A model generated the notes under the pieces. The model did no database searches. It was not told the DNA's origin and saw nothing but the letters and a program-made list of their open reading frames with translations. Shown here one piece after another: positions 24,270 through 60,783 of a stretch of 64,000 nt of DNA. A program made the position numbers and the translations under genes. Each line of letters starts with the position of its first letter. Within the stretch, counting starts at the first letter, position 1. Source of the DNA: Pseudalkalibacillus sp. SCS-8 (lineage in GTDB: Bacteria; Bacillota; Bacilli; Bacillales; Fictibacillaceae); assembly GCF_040126055.1 (NCBI RefSeq), contig NZ_CP143541.1, positions 2,790,001 to 2,854,000 on the forward strand. The letters run 5' to 3'.

Positions 24270-25520
24270 TTATTTTACAGTTGGGAAACCAAAGCCTGAA
24301 GCATAGTCATCTCCAGCAGCTGCTCCGGATCCTCCAAGAATGTCATTCGCTTTTGCACGATTTTGCAGTTCTGTACGAAGAGCTGCATTTGACATTGTAG
24401 GATTTGCCGCCCAAATTTTAGCCGCTAAACCTGACACATGCGGTGTTGCCATAGAAGTTCCGCTGATTGTATTGTATCCGCCATCCTTCCATGTGGACTC
24501 GATCGCCCGACCTGGTGCAGACACTTCAACGTCTCTCTCTTGGATGGTGAAGTCGCCATCTGTGCTTGGATTTCCTCTAGAAGAGAAGTCCGCCACACGA
24601 TACGTACCATTTTCTTGGACATTTTCAAGTGCAGCAACAGCTACTGCATCAACTAATGCACCAGGGTAGCCAATCGTATCAGCACTAGGTCCATCATTTC
24701 CGGCAGCCGCAATAACTAACGCGCCATTGTTCATCGCATATGTGACAGCATCAGAAATCAACGTGTTTTTCGAGCTTGATCCTAGTGACATGGAAATGAC
24801 AACATTCACTCCTAGAGCATTCCCTTGATCTGCCGCATGTTCGATAGCTGCAGCAATATCATCTGAGTAACCGAATCCGCTGTTACCCAGTACTTTGTAT
24901 GCCCAAAGCTTCGCTTCAGGTGCAACACCGTATACGCCCTGTCCATCAGCGCCACCATCTGCAAGGACTGTACCTGCAACATGTGTCCCATGTCCATTCT
25001 TATCCGTACATTGACCGTCTAAGATCGGTGCACGATTTTGACTGAAATCTTTACATTGTTCTACATTGGATACCAAGTCGACATGCTCGATGTAAGTACC
25101 TGTATCCAATACAGCAACACGTACACCATTACCACCGCTTGTTGCTGTCAAGTTCGCGTCATTATACATCGCTTCCATCCCCCAAGGTGTTTGATCGGAT
25201 GGAGTAGCTGTTCGAGTCGCCGTTTGAGAAACTTTATTTATCGAAACCTTTTCAACCAAGGATACATTCAAATTTTTATTCTTCTTCAATGCCTCATATT
25301 GTATTGCAGTTACATTTGTTGTAAATCCTTTTTCGTTGAAGTCCCAACGCTTTCCGTAGTTTGCTTTCGCATTTTTCAATACTTGATTGTTTGAAGAAGA
25401 AATCAAAACACGTAGCTTTTCATTTGCTTGTTCTTGTACGTTCCCTGCTGCAAATACACCCGATGCGAAAATTGAAACCATCATGATTGCTGTTAACGCA
25501 ATAGACAAAAGTCGTTTCAT
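24270..25520 (-). CDS. Secreted subtilisin-like serine protease (S8)
   Basis: 416 aa. Signal peptide (1 to about 25, ending VFAA), an I9-like propeptide (about 26-110), then the catalytic domain. Triad: Asp139 in VAVLDTG, His177 in NGHGTHVAG, Ser356 in SGTSMATPHVSG; oxyanion Asn275 in AAAGNDG. Cys156 and Cys171 bracket an insertion before the His, as in the psychrophilic subtilisin S41/sphericase group, and may form a disulfide. There is no C-terminal anchor, so it is released to the medium. SD AGGGGAGAG. It has a ~180-nt leader and a promoter shared in design with two small-RNA genes far downstream in coordinates. Confidence 0.95.
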   Translation of the reverse strand: MKRLLSIALTAIMMVSIFASGVFAAGNVQEQANEKLRVLISSSNNQVLKNAKANYGKRWDFNEKGFTTNVTAIQYEALKKNKNLNVSLVEKVSINKVSQTATRTATPSDQTPWGMEAMYNDANLTATSGGNGVRVAVLDTGTYIEHVDLVSNVEQCKDFSQNRAPILDGQCTDKNGHGTHVAGTVLADGGADGQGVYGVAPEAKLWAYKVLGNSGFGYSDDIAAAIEHAADQGNALGVNVVISMSLGSSSKNTLISDAVTYAMNNGALVIAAAGNDGPSADTIGYPGALVDAVAVAALENVQENGTYRVADFSSRGNPSTDGDFTIQERDVEVSAPGRAIESTWKDGGYNTISGTSMATPHVSGLAAKIWAANPTMSNAALRTELQNRAKANDILGGSGAAAGDDYASGFGFPTVK

Positions 25521-25704: not shown

Positions 25705-25794
25705 ATCATATCATAGGGCTTTATCGCTTTGTATTGGGAAAACGAGACCAAAATACATCTATTTAATGGCTCCTTTTTGGGTCCATTTTCCCAA
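25705..25794 (-). promoter_or_regulatory. Subtilase promoter with 52-bp-spaced inverted half-sites
   Basis: Minus strand: TTGGGAAAA (25794-25786), 43 bp, TTTTCCCAA (25742-25734), then immediately -35 TACAAA (25733-25728), 17 bp, -10 TATGAT (25710-25705). The same arrangement and spacing occur at two other sites in the window (31962-32051 and 32226-32315). Confidence 0.75.
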
Positions 25795-26127: not shown

Positions 26128-26766
26128 TTACAACGTCAACTTATTTCGATTTGCATAAATGGCAGCCTGGGTGCGATCTGCGACTTCAAGCTTGCTCAAT
26201 ATATTACTAACATGGGTTTTCACCGTTTTAATGCCAATGAATAAGGCTTCTCCTATTTCCTGATTCGTCTTCCCCTCCCCAATCAATGCCAGAACCTCTC
26301 GCTCACGTTTTGTCAGCTCATGATGAGGTAACGTCTCTTTATCTCTAAAGCGGTTCATCATTTTTTGCGCAACTTTTGATTCGATGACTGATTCACCTTT
26401 ATAAGCTTTCTTGATTGTACTAGAAATTTCTTCAGCTGAAGCTGTTTTCAATACATAACTGAAAGCTCCCGCCTCTATCGCTGGAAAGACTTGCTCATCA
26501 TCATAAAAGCTAGTCAAAATGATGATCTTACATTGAGGATGTGATTTCATGACTTCTTTCGTGGTTTCAATTCCATTACCGTTTTCCATTATCAAATCCA
26601 TAAGAATAACATCTGGTTGCAATTGAGCTAACTGCGTCACAGCCTCATTCCCACTTGATGCCTCGCCAATGATTTCAAATATCGGGTCCGTCATCAAATA
26701 GGAGCTAAGCCCTCTCCGGACCATTTCATGATCATCCACCAAAAAAACTTTAATCACATCACTCAT
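26128..26766 (-). CDS. liaR: NarL/LuxR-type response regulator, LiaR-like
   Basis: 212 aa. Receiver domain 1 to about 122 with Asp11/Asp12, phosphoacceptor Asp57 (ILMDLIM), Thr/Ser in IILTS and Lys in VLKTA. LuxR-type HTH at about 148-205 (LTKREREVLALIGEGKTNQEIGEAL). Genes run liaF-liaS-liaR with an 8-bp overlap of liaS and liaR, the arrangement of the cell-envelope-stress system LiaFSR/VraTSR. The usual target operon liaIH is not next to it. Confidence 0.92.
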   Translation of the reverse strand: MSDVIKVFLVDDHEMVRRGLSSYLMTDPIFEIIGEASSGNEAVTQLAQLQPDVILMDLIMENGNGIETTKEVMKSHPQCKIIILTSFYDDEQVFPAIEAGAFSYVLKTASAEEISSTIKKAYKGESVIESKVAQKMMNRFRDKETLPHHELTKREREVLALIGEGKTNQEIGEALFIGIKTVKTHVSNILSKLEVADRTQAAIYANRNKLTL

Positions 26767-27811
26767 CCATTACATCCCCTTTACCGATCGGTACACGTAT
26801 ATCCAAGGCTGTCCCTTTGCCTTGAGCAGAAGTTATGGAAAGTGTACCTCCGATTTCATTACATCTTTCCTGCATCGTTTTCAAACCATATGATGTTTTC
26901 TTCGGTTCATTGGAAACAAAGCCTACTCCATTATCACGCAGATGAACTCTGATATGCTGTCCCGTGTGGTCTAATCGAATCGTCAACCTACTTGCTTGTG
27001 AATGGCGTAACGCATTGGCTAATCCTTCCTGAATCATTCTGAACAAATGATCCTCAATACCCTTTGGAAGCTCTGGAATCGATTGGATGTCAGACTCGAT
27101 TTCGATTCCGGATTTGAGTTTCAGCTCCTCTACAAGTCCTTTGATCCCGGTGTACAAGTTCTCACCAGACAGTTGGACGGGACGTAAGTGAAGGAGGAGT
27201 GCACGCATCTCCCCTTGTGCCTTGTTCGCCATATCAACCACCTGCTCTAACTGTTGTTTGGCACGTTCTGGATGGGTATTGAATAATTTCATCGCAGCTG
27301 ATGACATCATATTCAATGCAAAGAGTTGTTGACTTACCGCATCATGAAGGTCTCTTGCTAGACGTTGTCTTTCTTCAATCGTAGCTGCAGTATGGGCTTT
27401 CTCAACCAGTTCGGCCTTATCATTCACAAGCTTCTGGAGAGATCGCACTTGTTCTTCCACCTTTTTAGTCAGTTCATTCAATTCGTGACAGATGGTACCT
27501 ACTTCATCGCTTCCGTTATCCTGAATGCGATAGTCATAGTTTCCTCTCGATAGCTTTGTAATTGCCACGTAAATTCCATTTAATCGATCAATTAATTGCT
27601 GGCCTTTGAGAAAGCTGAAATAGAGACCGATGAGAAGCGAAAGGACGAATACAGCTATGGATATCACCAGGCTTACAACGATACGGTCAACTGATGGATT
27701 AAAATAAAAGAGGATCTGAAAAAGGAAGAAGATGAAGATGGTCGTATAAAATGAGTTCAACAGATGTGTTCGATATAGGATTGTACGAACACTATTGTGC
27801 TTCTTAATCAT
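26759..27811 (-). CDS. liaS: Sensor histidine kinase, LiaS-like
   Basis: 350 aa. Two helices (about 21-38 and 44-66) with almost no extracellular loop, a HAMP-like linker, then HisKA_3 with His156 in ARDLHDAVSQ and an HATPase domain (NALRHSQAS, DNGVGF, YGLKTMQERC, GKGTALDI). The intramembrane-sensing layout matches LiaS, which responds to lipid II-binding antibiotics and is held in check by LiaF. It lies 12 bp after liaF. Confidence 0.93.
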   Translation of the reverse strand: MIKKHNSVRTILYRTHLLNSFYTTIFIFFLFQILFYFNPSVDRIVVSLVISIAVFVLSLLIGLYFSFLKGQQLIDRLNGIYVAITKLSRGNYDYRIQDNGSDEVGTICHELNELTKKVEEQVRSLQKLVNDKAELVEKAHTAATIEERQRLARDLHDAVSQQLFALNMMSSAAMKLFNTHPERAKQQLEQVVDMANKAQGEMRALLLHLRPVQLSGENLYTGIKGLVEELKLKSGIEIESDIQSIPELPKGIEDHLFRMIQEGLANALRHSQASRLTIRLDHTGQHIRVHLRDNGVGFVSNEPKKTSYGLKTMQERCNEIGGTLSITSAQGKGTALDIRVPIGKGDVMDE

Positions 27812-27823
27812 GTCTATTCTCCC

Positions 27824-28558
27824 CTAAACCCGATCGATTCTTAAATCGAGAACCTGAAAATCGATATTGAAAGTCAGCTTACGAGTTGCCTCATCATATC
27901 CATCCGTCTTATAATTCGCATTCTTCATAATGCCATCTCTACTGTAATGTCCTATTTTGACGTCCCCTACCTTTGATGAAGCGATAAGGGAAAATTCCAC
28001 ATCCTCAGGAATCAGAATTTTTATGTCCCCTACCCAGCCTGCCAATTTGATTTTCGTATCCCGGTCTGGTATGAAGGCTTTCGTGTAATCGAAGTCGTAA
28101 TCCGCGACCCCATTCCACTCGTCTAAATCTTCAACCTGCCAATTGTTTTCTTTCATAGAAACGTCTGTTACAAATCCATTTTTAGAAGATTTGGCCGTCA
28201 CCTTGATGATCGGCCGTTTCCCCATTAAAATCCTCAGGCCGATATAGACGAACAACAAAGGCCAATAATTTACGATTTCACGAAATGAAAATTCCCAATA
28301 ACCTAATCGATCAGCCGCTAACATGACACCAATTAACGTCAAAAAGGTGCCAAAAAACCAATTCCCATGCTTCCCCTTCGTTGCTAGCAGATCGAACAAT
28401 AACTTTAGACCTATTATAGTCAGGACAAAAGGGTACAAAAAATGAATCGCTTCGTCTATTTCCATGGAAATAAGACCTAAATTGACAAGAAGCAGCACCA
28501 CTCCACCTAAAATAAATAAGAGTGCTATAAAGAATTGACAGCCAGAATATACCTTCAT
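27824..28558 (-). CDS. liaF: LiaF-like membrane inhibitor of LiaS
   Basis: 244 aa. Four N-terminal helices in two hairpins (about 8-28, 38-58, 68-85, 92-112) and a soluble C-terminal beta domain (about 115-244) ending in FNIDFQVLDLRIDRV, as in the LiaF C-terminal family. First gene of the liaFSR operon. AGAGGTG precedes the ATG. In relatives it keeps LiaS off in the absence of envelope stress; here that is inferred from family and gene order. Confidence 0.92.
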   Translation of the reverse strand: MKVYSGCQFFIALLFILGGVVLLLVNLGLISMEIDEAIHFLYPFVLTIIGLKLLFDLLATKGKHGNWFFGTFLTLIGVMLAADRLGYWEFSFREIVNYWPLLFVYIGLRILMGKRPIIKVTAKSSKNGFVTDVSMKENNWQVEDLDEWNGVADYDFDYTKAFIPDRDTKIKLAGWVGDIKILIPEDVEFSLIASSKVGDVKIGHYSRDGIMKNANYKTDGYDEATRKLTFNIDFQVLDLRIDRV

Positions 28559-31431: not shown

Positions 31432-31791
31432 TTAAGTAGAGAAAAGGTCCGCATTTCTCTGAGTCAATCCCTTTTCCTGAAAACAAACGCTGGTATTTAC
31501 TAAACAGTAACACTTTACCCTAAGCAACATTGTTGTAAACCGATAAACCTCATTTATTGCGAAAAAAATATCCATTAGAGCACTAATGGATATCAACCCA
31601 ATTCCATAATCTTGTTTCTCCCTAGGTTTAATTTTTTCATCCGTCAGCTGCTCAATTTCTAAATAGGCACGATAAAAGGTTTCCTGCATGATATCTTCTG
31701 CTATTCCATCATCCCTTGATAGTGAGAACAGATAGCGAAAAACATCATGAGCATATTCTTCATAAAGTCGATCCAATGAATCTTTCCGCAT
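31432..31791 (-). pseudogene. Truncated ECF sigma factor gene
   Basis: The first 56 codons encode a normal ECF sigma region 2: LYEEYAHDVFRYLFSLSRDD, AEDIMQETFYRAYLEIEQL. After DEKIKP the expected continuation (WLF.. and regions 2.4-4) is replaced by unrelated sequence containing a strong terminator. Region 4 is absent, so the gene cannot make a working sigma factor; only the region-2 fragment might be produced. No anti-sigma gene follows. It looks like a deletion relic. Confidence 0.8.
31561..31591 (-). terminator. Terminator inside the sigma-gene remnant
   Basis: ATATCCATTAG / CTAATGGATAT with a 4-base loop followed by TTTTTTTC on the minus strand. Confidence 0.88.
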
Positions 31792-31882
31792 CTGTCTCCC
31801 CTTTCTAATCTAAACACTTTTCAAAATGGAAAACGTTACATACAAATTGAATTTTTTTCAGTTGAATGTGAGCGTAGAAACA

Positions 31883-31955
31883 AAAAAAGGTGCAAGCCGA
31901 TTCGGCTTGCACATAAGTAAGGTATGGGCGGTGTCAGAGTTTTAAGGGGATTGTC
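31883..31955 (-). ncRNA. Candidate small RNA A (~73 nt)
   Basis: A promoter (31962-31990) and a perfect terminator bound a ~73-nt transcript with no ORF. The 3' end is the stem GTGCAAGCCGA / TCGGCTTGCAC followed by CTTTTTTTG. The 5' part has two unpaired C-rich segments, CCCCTTAA and TGACACCGCCC. It resembles sRNA B, 260 bp away, in promoter, 5' region and stem. CCCCUU segments are the usual anti-SD seed of Gram-positive trans-acting sRNAs. Family not recognised. Confidence 0.72.
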
Positions 31956-31961
31956 TACTTC

Positions 31962-32051
31962 AGTATAGCATGGGTGGACGTGGTTGTTTATTGGGAAAGT
32001 CACGGCATTTCTAGACGAAAAAACTCTCACTGTCATAATGAATTTTCCCAA
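31962..32051 (-). promoter_or_regulatory. Promoter and paired half-sites of sRNA A
   Basis: Minus strand: TTGGGAAAA (32051-32043), then TTTCCCAA ending at 31991, start-to-start 52 bp; abutting -35 TAAACA (31990-31985), 17 bp with a TGn extension, -10 TATACT (31967-31962). Confidence 0.78.
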
Positions 32052-32136
32052 CTGTTCCGTTTTTGTTCCACCCCCAAAAACCCGATTTGCAAATATGGTT
32101 ATTTACACCTTAAGGAGTATAGGAATGATTATGAAT

Positions 32137-32219
32137 AAAAAATAATGCGCAAGCCGGGGGAGGCTTGCGCACAAAAAAAGGGTTGGGTGGTGTCAATATC
32201 CATTATTAAGGGGGTTGTC
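32137..32219 (-). ncRNA. Candidate small RNA B (~83 nt)
   Basis: Paralogue of sRNA A. After the promoter at 32226-32254 it shares AAGTGGACAA, CCCCCTTAA and TGACACCACCCA with A, then ends in TGCGCAAGCC / GGCTTGCGCA with a C-rich six-base loop and a TTATTTTTT tail. No ORF with a start site is present. The tandem arrangement and conserved C-rich segments with diverged spacers indicate selection on RNA rather than protein. Confidence 0.72.
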
Positions 32220-32225
32220 CACTTA

Positions 32226-32315
32226 AGTATAGCACGCCATCATGGTGTTGTTTATTGGGAAAACCTTTGAATTGTTGAAGGACTATATGCATTGAATCAT
32301 GTGTGATTTTCCCAA
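32226..32315 (-). promoter_or_regulatory. Promoter and paired half-sites of sRNA B
   Basis: Minus strand: TTGGGAAAA (32315-32307), TTTTCCCAA (32263-32255), start-to-start 52 bp; abutting -35 TAAACA (32254-32249), 17 bp with a TGn extension, -10 TATACT (32231-32226). Confidence 0.78.
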
Positions 32316-60195: not shown

Positions 60196-60428
60196 AGGCT
60201 GTTTTTGATGTTGAACAGCTTCAGGCGGACGCTTTCCGCGGGCAACGCTTCAGCCTCACTTCCACAGGATGTGGTGACTTCGACGTTCACCATAGGACGT
60301 GGTGGGTTTTTAGTCGAAGAACCTTAATTCCTTGGTCTGCGGGGTCTTCAGCTGTTGCTTTTCCCGCTGGAGTCGCCGCCTTACGCTTCTGTTTTCTTTA
60401 ATATCAACGATAAAAGCTAACAGAGCCT
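60196..60428 (-). repeat. MITE-like dispersed repeat, copy 1 (lysC leader)
   Basis: Shares with copy 2 (62596-62759) the block from TGTTGAACAGCTTCAGGCGG through CAGCCTCAC and the block from GCGGGGTCTTCAGCTGTTGC through GCCGCCTTACGCTT, plus the end ACAGAGCCT. It carries about 55 extra bases in the middle and a decayed left end (AAGGCTGTT). No target duplication is seen. Confidence 0.85.
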
Positions 60429-60527
60429 AAAAAAAGGATTGACATCTCAACGTGTGACGGGCTTTCCAAACAACCATAAAAAATGGTGGATTGAAAAAAC
60501 GATACGTCAGACTTGAGCGTCAATCCT
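60429..60527 (-). terminator. Lysine-riboswitch expression-platform terminator
   Basis: AGGATTGAC..TGACG arm at 60527-60505 pairs with CGTCA..GTCAATCCT at 60459-60435 on the minus strand and is followed by TTTTTTT. A competing stem CAGAC-TTGAG / CTCAA-GTCTG in the same region can act as antiterminator. Confidence 0.72.
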
Positions 60528-60554
60528 CAACGTCTGCCACACTTATTCCCTTGC

Positions 60555-60741
60555 GTGAGATAGTCCTCCATACGACTTCAGGGATGGGTCGTATGACAGC
60601 CCTGCATTTCTTCAATACAGGTCCAGCTGGATCATGGTTGAGGCACCACCCAGCTTCGGCGAATTCCCCTTTCCTTTTGCACTCGTCAGAGCTCAATCTC
60701 TTCATGCAAAGTACTGATGGTTTCCGCGCCTCTACCATCAC
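60555..60741 (-). promoter_or_regulatory. Lysine riboswitch (L-box)
   Basis: On the minus strand the conserved aptamer parts occur in order: GGTAGAGGCGCGG, CAGTAC, ATGAAGAG, AAAGGAAAGGGGAATTCGCC, GAAGC, GGGTGGTGCCTC, GGGCTGTCATACGACCC and GGAGGACTATC. The first and last pair as the P1 stem (GTGA-GGTAG with CTATCTCAC). It stands upstream of lysC, the classical L-box gene, and is followed by a terminator. Confidence 0.92.
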
Positions 60742-60783
60742 TTCATTTACATACGAAGTGTGGCCAAAAATTTAATTGCTTGT

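Follow-up and report, generated by a model that had tools for sequence, protein, structure and literature searches.

The window, as the whole 64,000-nt stretch analysed here is called, carries on its minus strand a subtilase gene and two paralogous small RNA genes, each accompanied by the same long-spaced inverted repeat. The features are the following.

24270-25520, minus strand: subtilase gene (Peptidase_S8, 416 aa, N-terminal leader), a putative target of regulation through operator 1
25705-25710, minus strand: subtilase -10 element TATGAT, preceded by TGA, 23 bp from the near half-site, with no good -35
25734-25794, minus strand: operator 1, 61 bp, N45, upstream of the subtilase gene
31881-31956, minus strand: small RNA A, ends approximate, terminator hairpin stem at 31890-31912
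31962-31967, minus strand: small RNA A -10 element TATACT, extended, preceded by TGC
31991-32051, minus strand: operator 2, 61 bp, N45
32135-32220, minus strand: small RNA B, paralogue of A, ends approximate, conserved at 32184-32219, terminator stem at 32145-32172
32226-32231, minus strand: small RNA B -10 element TATACT, extended, preceded by TGC
32255-32315, minus strand: operator 3, 61 bp, N45

The operator, its spacer and its promoters

All three elements have one layout, the octamer TTGGGAAA, 45 spacer positions and the octamer TTTCCCAA (8+45+8 = 61 bp), and the inverted pairs are present exactly where a first-pass annotation of the window had put them. A set of 100 window shuffles gives an expectation of 0.01 pairs, and none produced three. 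Is the pair scattered at random over the genome, the outcome named in that annotation as evidence against it? The pattern TTGGGAAA-N45-TTTCCCAA occurs at nine places in the 3.62-Mb genome, eight with N45 and one with N46, and the reversed control at none; the family and promoter-offset counts given below agree. At N45 there are eight places with no mismatch, none with one, two with two and 28 with three (two of these being the N46 site shifted by one base). With up to three mismatches this makes 38 places versus 34 for the control. Partial versions thus hardly rise above background, and the motif is in essence either complete or absent, its 16 defined bases and the distance between its halves being strictly kept.

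All 34 genomes examined from the window's family have two to nine operator copies, with the control pattern at zero in each, and across the order 80 of 397 genomes hold 259 sites, the control occurring once in each of three genomes. Named genera with the operator, among the matches listed, are Fictibacillus, Pseudalkalibacillus, Alkalihalobacillus, Sutcliffiella, Tuberibacillus, Scopulibacillus and others; the mostly single matches in unrelated genomes, again among the matches listed, are probably due to chance. This named-genome scan gave at least 118 stretches, 80 of them with names, and demanded the pattern TTTCCCAATA. Three matches to the operator pattern lie in viral contigs. Over the examined genomes the 8-bp boxes are separated by N43-46; spacers of 44 and 45 predominate and are mostly constant inside one species, some species being mixed.

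The annotation had held that only the half-sites and their phase are kept. The spacer sequence itself is indeed free, but the claim is wrong for A/T content: A/T-rich blocks recur about once per helical turn, one at the middle of the spacer and the others some 10.5 and 21 bp away on either side. The spacer set of 151 operators, which left out named loci outside Bacilli, MAGs judged unrelated and L103-L143, was reduced to 103 at 75% identity and to 81 at 65%, and the 75 with N44 or N45 were tested. The A/T period that fits best is 10.8 bp in the N44 class and 11.3 bp in the N45 class. At 10.4 bp, 31/31 N44 and 44/44 N45 operators (75/75, at most 65% alike) have a positive phase amplitude, about 12 standard deviations over within-spacer shuffles (z=12 in both length classes), and control windows 130 bp away (n=280) have an amplitude of 0.011 versus 0.09-0.11 in the spacers. 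In the window's own genome, phasing is positive in 9/9 operators. Phased A/T blocks are expected for bent DNA that faces a protein once per helical turn. The pattern suggests that the spacer DNA is bent, which would offer a physical reason for the long half-site distance.

How is such an element connected to transcription? At the three window sites the near half-site abuts a minus-strand promoter with a 17-bp spacing, as the annotation had it; the -35 hexamers are poor, however, and the -10 elements are extended. The small RNA promoters both read TAAACA-17-TATACT, and site 1 reads, by direct reading of the minus strand, TACAAA-17-TATGAT. The extended -10, TGnTAnnnT, lies exactly 20 bp from the near half-site and a good -35 is absent. 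This geometry recurs: among 136 distinct operators with flanks, TGnTAnnnT starts 20 bp past the half-site on 85 of 272 sides versus 0.58 in shuffled sequence, and a promoter at 19-21 is found on at least one side in 88/136 operators, on both sides in 12 and on neither in 48. The 136 were drawn from 197 operators by dropping non-Bacilli named loci, MAGs judged unrelated and L103-L143. The TA that follows the half-site is partly selected because the named-genome scan demanded it within the pattern given above; the -10 offset and the A/T phasing are free of this selection. In the own genome the offset -10 is present at six of nine operators and absent at L002/L018, L004/L020 and L008/L021 (the table of own-genome and ORF offset promoters excluded L103-L143). 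A half-site in the place of the -35, followed by an extended -10, is the anatomy of an activator-dependent promoter, and from it we infer activation at the operator-linked promoters.

The probable regulator beside the operator

One of the nine operators adjoins the gene of a 421-aa HTH+TPR protein (G000:C1:237644-238903), lying between this gene and a divergent one, with the regulator start codon 19 bp past the half-site. Like NprR, a receptor of about 420 aa, it has an N-terminal HTH_3 domain followed by TPR_12 and other TPR domains. In a profile search the protein is the genome's only strong full-length HTH+TPR match, at 599 bits, the next being a Rap-like protein without HTH at 204 bits. 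A 457-aa frame (G000:C1:913282-914466) shows weak TPR and HTH pieces at 50 and 28 bits and is perhaps another peptide receptor; the remaining matches are HTH-only. The divergent gene (L001:1718-2518; in relatives for instance L146:1706-2605) encodes in many genomes a protein of 266-300 aa behind an offset promoter, and its own-genome copy matched no Pfam family.

Against solved structures, a profile of 12 regulators finds NprR first, at 167 bits, and RapI at 143, and a single-sequence search also places NprR nearest to the regulator. The structural model is all-helical (pLDDT 90.9); fold comparison ranks RapI first and NprR second, the latter with higher TM-scores. The tyrosine Y223 of NprR is needed for tetramers (PMC4970707, in excerpt), and a Tyr stands at this position in 12/12 aligned regulators; the F225 position is aromatic in 8/12 and aliphatic in 4/12. 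The solved NprR chain found nothing at E<=1e-60 in 398 genomes of the class, and the receptor L327, considered as a NprR of the B. cereus type, was rejected with a NprR match of only 56 bits. Directly 3' of the regulator lies a 75-aa frame with a hydrophobic leader and four copies of IDDRPE(P/L), predicted to be a secreted pheromone-like precursor, with a Phr_nterm match below the family cut-off. Relatives have precursors with SEPDHPKIV x3, PLDEVP(E/D)IA x4 or HDRVPDS x2, and some of their regulator loci have a single-copy precursor or no clear one. A survey found repeats in 17/17 atypically large NprR propeptides (PMC9765709, in excerpt).

To test the link between operator and regulator, regulators were ranked by protein score alone, with the A2 profile seeded from operator-bearing loci. 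The top 30 have the exact operator within 420 bp upstream in 29 cases and with one mismatch in the other, and they are not independent, because they come from four families (13 + 13 + 2 + 2). For these loci everted and direct-repeat controls never come below two mismatches, and reversed and shuffled controls never below four. Among 60 lower-scoring regulators, taken from the rows below the top 30 (39 others, mostly fetched in knowledge of their operator status, stand outside the count), an operator with at most one mismatch lies upstream of 11. Here the direct-repeat control comes down to two mismatches at seven loci and to one at a single locus, the reversed control and one of the shuffled controls each come down to three at a single locus, and the everted control never falls below four.

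Co-occurrence over genomes gives the same picture, with rounded E exponents. Genomes with a best regulator at E <= ~1e-130 have the operator in 59/61 cases, and the two that remain carry a N43 operator upstream of the regulator; genomes with no regulator match have it in 2/127. Between ~1e-108 and ~1e-130 the exact pattern is absent from 14/25 genomes, some of which have a one-mismatch operator at the regulator. Weaker regulator matches are nonetheless accompanied by an operator in 8/184 genomes, G010 among them. With the cut at ~1e-108, the two-by-two table of regulator against operator over 397 genomes reads 70/16/10/301. The 14/25 and the many distant genes without operator mean that the operator belongs to a NprR-like clade and not to all NprR-like proteins. 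Three plasmid-borne homologues lack an operator in the 420 bp before the gene, their best matches having 4-6 mismatches. G010, a member of the window's family, has seven operators and a best regulator E of only 5.9e-88; perhaps its regulator gene is disrupted or has been replaced, or the assembly lacks it.

Operators upstream of the regulator fall into two arrangements, tabulated with L103-L143 retained. The near class comprises 23 distinct operators, of which 22 end 18-21 bp ahead of the regulator start codon and one ends 43 bp ahead of it; an offset promoter points toward the divergent gene in 22/23 and toward the regulator in 0/23. In the far class (25 operators) the distance is 71-195 bp, with an offset TGnTAnnnT toward the regulator in none and on the other side in three. 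A promoter of activated geometry thus points to the regulator at 0/48 operators, so that autoregulation is maybe negative or proceeds from another promoter. Do other groups of regulators have long-spaced repeats of their own? A scan of 11 genome groups for inverted 7-mers with spacers of 20-55 recovered TTGGGAAA in f37 (3/5) and f9 (1/4), and GGAAAAT in both f20g23 members. Apart from these, three groups (f11, f13 and f6/f26) share a repeat in more than half of their members. The scan returned CGCTTTG-N45/46 in 8/13 and ACAAAAG-N45 in 7/13 of f11, GAAAAAG-N20 in 3/5 of f13, TGGAAAT-N46 in 2/3 of f6/f26, and GAGAAAC in 2/3 of f15 at unequal spacings. The f11 repeats were rejected as operators: their spacers are nearly identical in all members and weakly or wrongly phased, which gives them the look of upstream DNA that closely related genomes have kept in common.

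Operator-linked genes and small RNAs

In the own genome the operators are linked to four peptidases (two S8 subtilases, one M12B-like and one C92), all with N-terminal hydrophobic leaders as judged by eye, and further to a DUF2188 protein, the NprR-like gene with its divergent gene, and the two small RNAs. Three of the four peptidase genes (L018, L020, L021) stand behind operators without the offset -10. One more operator lies upstream of a Rap-like gene that is followed by a 45-aa Phr-like precursor; on the opposite side of this operator, L022:6448-6612 is a 54-aa ORF with three ERDAIIPD repeats and no evident signal peptide at the shown start, possibly a second multi-copy pheromone gene. Across genomes, 26 of 77 ORFs behind offset promoters encode peptidases, 19 of type S8 and seven of type M4, and five encode RapH_N proteins. 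This domain scan covered 77 of 89 ORFs, with small RNA loci and ORFs <50 aa excluded, and many of the ORFs are orthologous to each other; the regulon content is one of operator linkage, not of expression. Extracellular proteases are a known NprR output (PMC4147580 and PMC4873490, both in excerpt). Next to the window's subtilase gene there is a LiaF-LiaS-LiaR-like operon (26128-28558), whose promoter has no operator. The first-pass proposal that a single regulator serves the subtilase gene and the two small RNA genes is well supported, since the operator is found again, with the same spacing and promoter geometry, across the genome and in related genera.

The small RNAs form a family of narrow distribution. 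A search with a pattern made from the two window RNAs finds 13 copies in 8/8 genomes of the genus and no copy in the other 26 family genomes, and a N45 operator lies just upstream of all 13. Their first ~35 bases are nearly invariant, one window copy differing by a 5-base insert; in small RNA A this 5' region runs from GACAATCCCCTTAA to TGACACCGCCCA at 31925-31955, and it is predicted to be single-stranded. The terminator stem shows compensating variation: both sides have changed in 12 cells, a value reached by 0/500 shuffles, and three pairs have a compensatory change, a value reached by 123/500. Judged by conservation, both small RNAs are real. Rfam at its curated threshold has no match to them, and two weak opposite-strand matches are far below threshold; elsewhere in the window, at 60261-60742, there are Rfam matches to Bacillaceae-1 RNA and the lysine riboswitch. 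After small RNA A follows a 119-aa ORF (31432-31791) in which only sigma-70 region 2 was matched, perhaps a shortened sigma factor. The C-rich 5' seed suggests pairing with ribosome-binding sites. Its complement, with at most two mismatches, occurs at 49 places of the genome (the two small RNA genes included) versus 15 for the reversed control. Since Shine-Dalgarno-like sequence alone could give this excess, no target is claimed.

Mechanism, alternatives and known systems

What binds the 61-bp element? Very probably it is the operator of a quorum-sensing regulator of the NprR family (RRNPP type), here the 421-aa HTH+TPR protein. Peptide-dependent DNA binding and Spo0F phosphatase activity are among the traits of NprR. 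With its peptide bound, NprR is reported to be a tetramer and is expected to contact two sites on DNA (PMC4970707, in excerpt; PMC5349214), a proposal with which two inverted sites five turns apart and a bent spacer fit. In a dense population, re-imported peptide would bind the TPR domain and the regulator would become a DNA-binding tetramer with an HTH pair at either half-site. The two pairs would lie on one face of the helix, separated by about five turns, and the phased A/T-rich spacer would presumably bend toward the protein. The near HTH would occupy the place of the -35 and recruit RNA polymerase to the extended -10 promoter. Expression of secreted proteases and of a Rap-Phr cassette would follow, as would that of the two C-rich small RNAs in this genus; these small RNAs would probably act by base pairing. 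Direct binding, peptide dependence, bridging by a tetramer, bending, the sign of regulation and small RNA function are inferred parts of the model. The solved NprR chains that were aligned begin past the HTH, and the 53-bp spacing of the HTHs is the model's own. The full version, in which a peptide-bound NprR tetramer bends or wraps ~61 bp, contacts an octamer at each end and the A/T minor grooves once per turn, uses its near HTH as a stand-in -35 and in one genus drives a small RNA family with a C-rich 5' seed that acts post-transcriptionally, is a tentative one, to which we give slightly less than an even chance.

The strong confidence above covers the core claim, that the element is an operator of the NprR-like regulator, and two alternatives vary the mechanism inside it. 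The NprR-like protein could bind as a single extended dimer with one HTH per half-site, in the manner of AimR, whose dimer binds 6-bp inverted repeats 25 bp apart and tolerates longer spacers (PMC6458997, in excerpt); the half-sites here, being single non-palindromic octamers, would suit such a dimer. We consider this unlikely, given that the 45-bp spacer is 20 bp longer than that of AimR, that NprR is tetrameric in its peptide-bound form and that the tyrosine implicated in tetramer formation is invariant in the aligned regulators. Less probable again is a repressing loop, in which the regulator would hold both sites and block transcription until released by peptide. The near class, with its operator end close to the regulator start codon in 22/23 and its lack of activated promoters toward the regulator, would fit such a loop, but the same operators have the offset extended -10 promoter on their other side in 22/23, and a half-site that replaces the -35 fits activation. 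Outside the core claim, a LuxR-type two-component response regulator might bind the operator, for instance the LiaR-like protein encoded at 26128-26766, the regulator gene nearest to operator 1 within the window. It was rejected as the operator binder for want of linkage and is very improbable: none of the nine operators lies at the promoter of its operon and one lies at the NprR-like gene, the exact operator precedes 29/30 top-scoring NprR-related regulator genes, and its presence tracks the NprR-like gene over 397 genomes.

The preferred reading, an operator of a NprR-like regulator, invites comparison with known systems. NprR-NprX of the Bacillus cereus group likewise combines an HTH + TPR receptor, a secreted peptide precursor and extracellular protease targets. 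In that group PlcR activates nprR and CodY represses it, but in the present system a copy of the operator often stands at the regulator gene. A 2014 review reports that NprR-NprX occupies the -35 region of nprA and that the exact sequence was still awaited (PMC4147580, in excerpt); for the NprR-like clade an exact operator is now defined. AimR of SPbeta-type phages (arbitrium) is also an RRNPP receptor with inverted half-sites and an unusually long A/T-rich spacer, whose backbone is touched by its TPR domain (PMC6458997, in excerpt). It differs in having 6-bp boxes 25 bp apart, as excerpted there, instead of 8-bp boxes 43-46 bp apart, and in being released from DNA by its peptide; in line with this, the operators described here lack the AimR-type arrangement of 6-bp inverted repeats with a 25-bp spacer. 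Rap-Phr resembles the present system in the own operator upstream of Rap-like and Phr-like genes and in RapH_N among the linked ORFs (5/77), but Rap is without HTH and is here likely a target, not the DNA-binding regulator. PlcR-PapR is an RRNPP activator of exported proteins, with promoters that have a sigma-A-like -10 and a divergent -35; unlike the operator here, its PlcR box is compact, a palindrome of 16 bp whose distance from the start site varies (PMC4147580, in excerpt). By reading, this box (TATGNANNNNANCATA, as in the same excerpt) is absent from the three window operators.

The full-text literature, among the matches listed, holds no description of the present operator, which is weak evidence of absence. 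Cabrera et al. reportedly published in 2016 a paper on NprR and its DNA target, and the operator may already have been described in the B. cereus group. What the analysis offers is an exact operator for a NprR-like clade in several families of bacilli, with a list of operator-linked genes over many genomes, and a model of the geometry that is open to test by a single binding assay. If the model is true, the small RNA family would be a quorum-controlled riboregulator, and quorum sensing would act post-transcriptionally in an RRNPP system. Two loci from different families, L217 and L222, have the recognition-helix variant SISHLSKIE together with an upstream operator whose second half is TTTCACAA, a possible case of helix and half-site having changed together.
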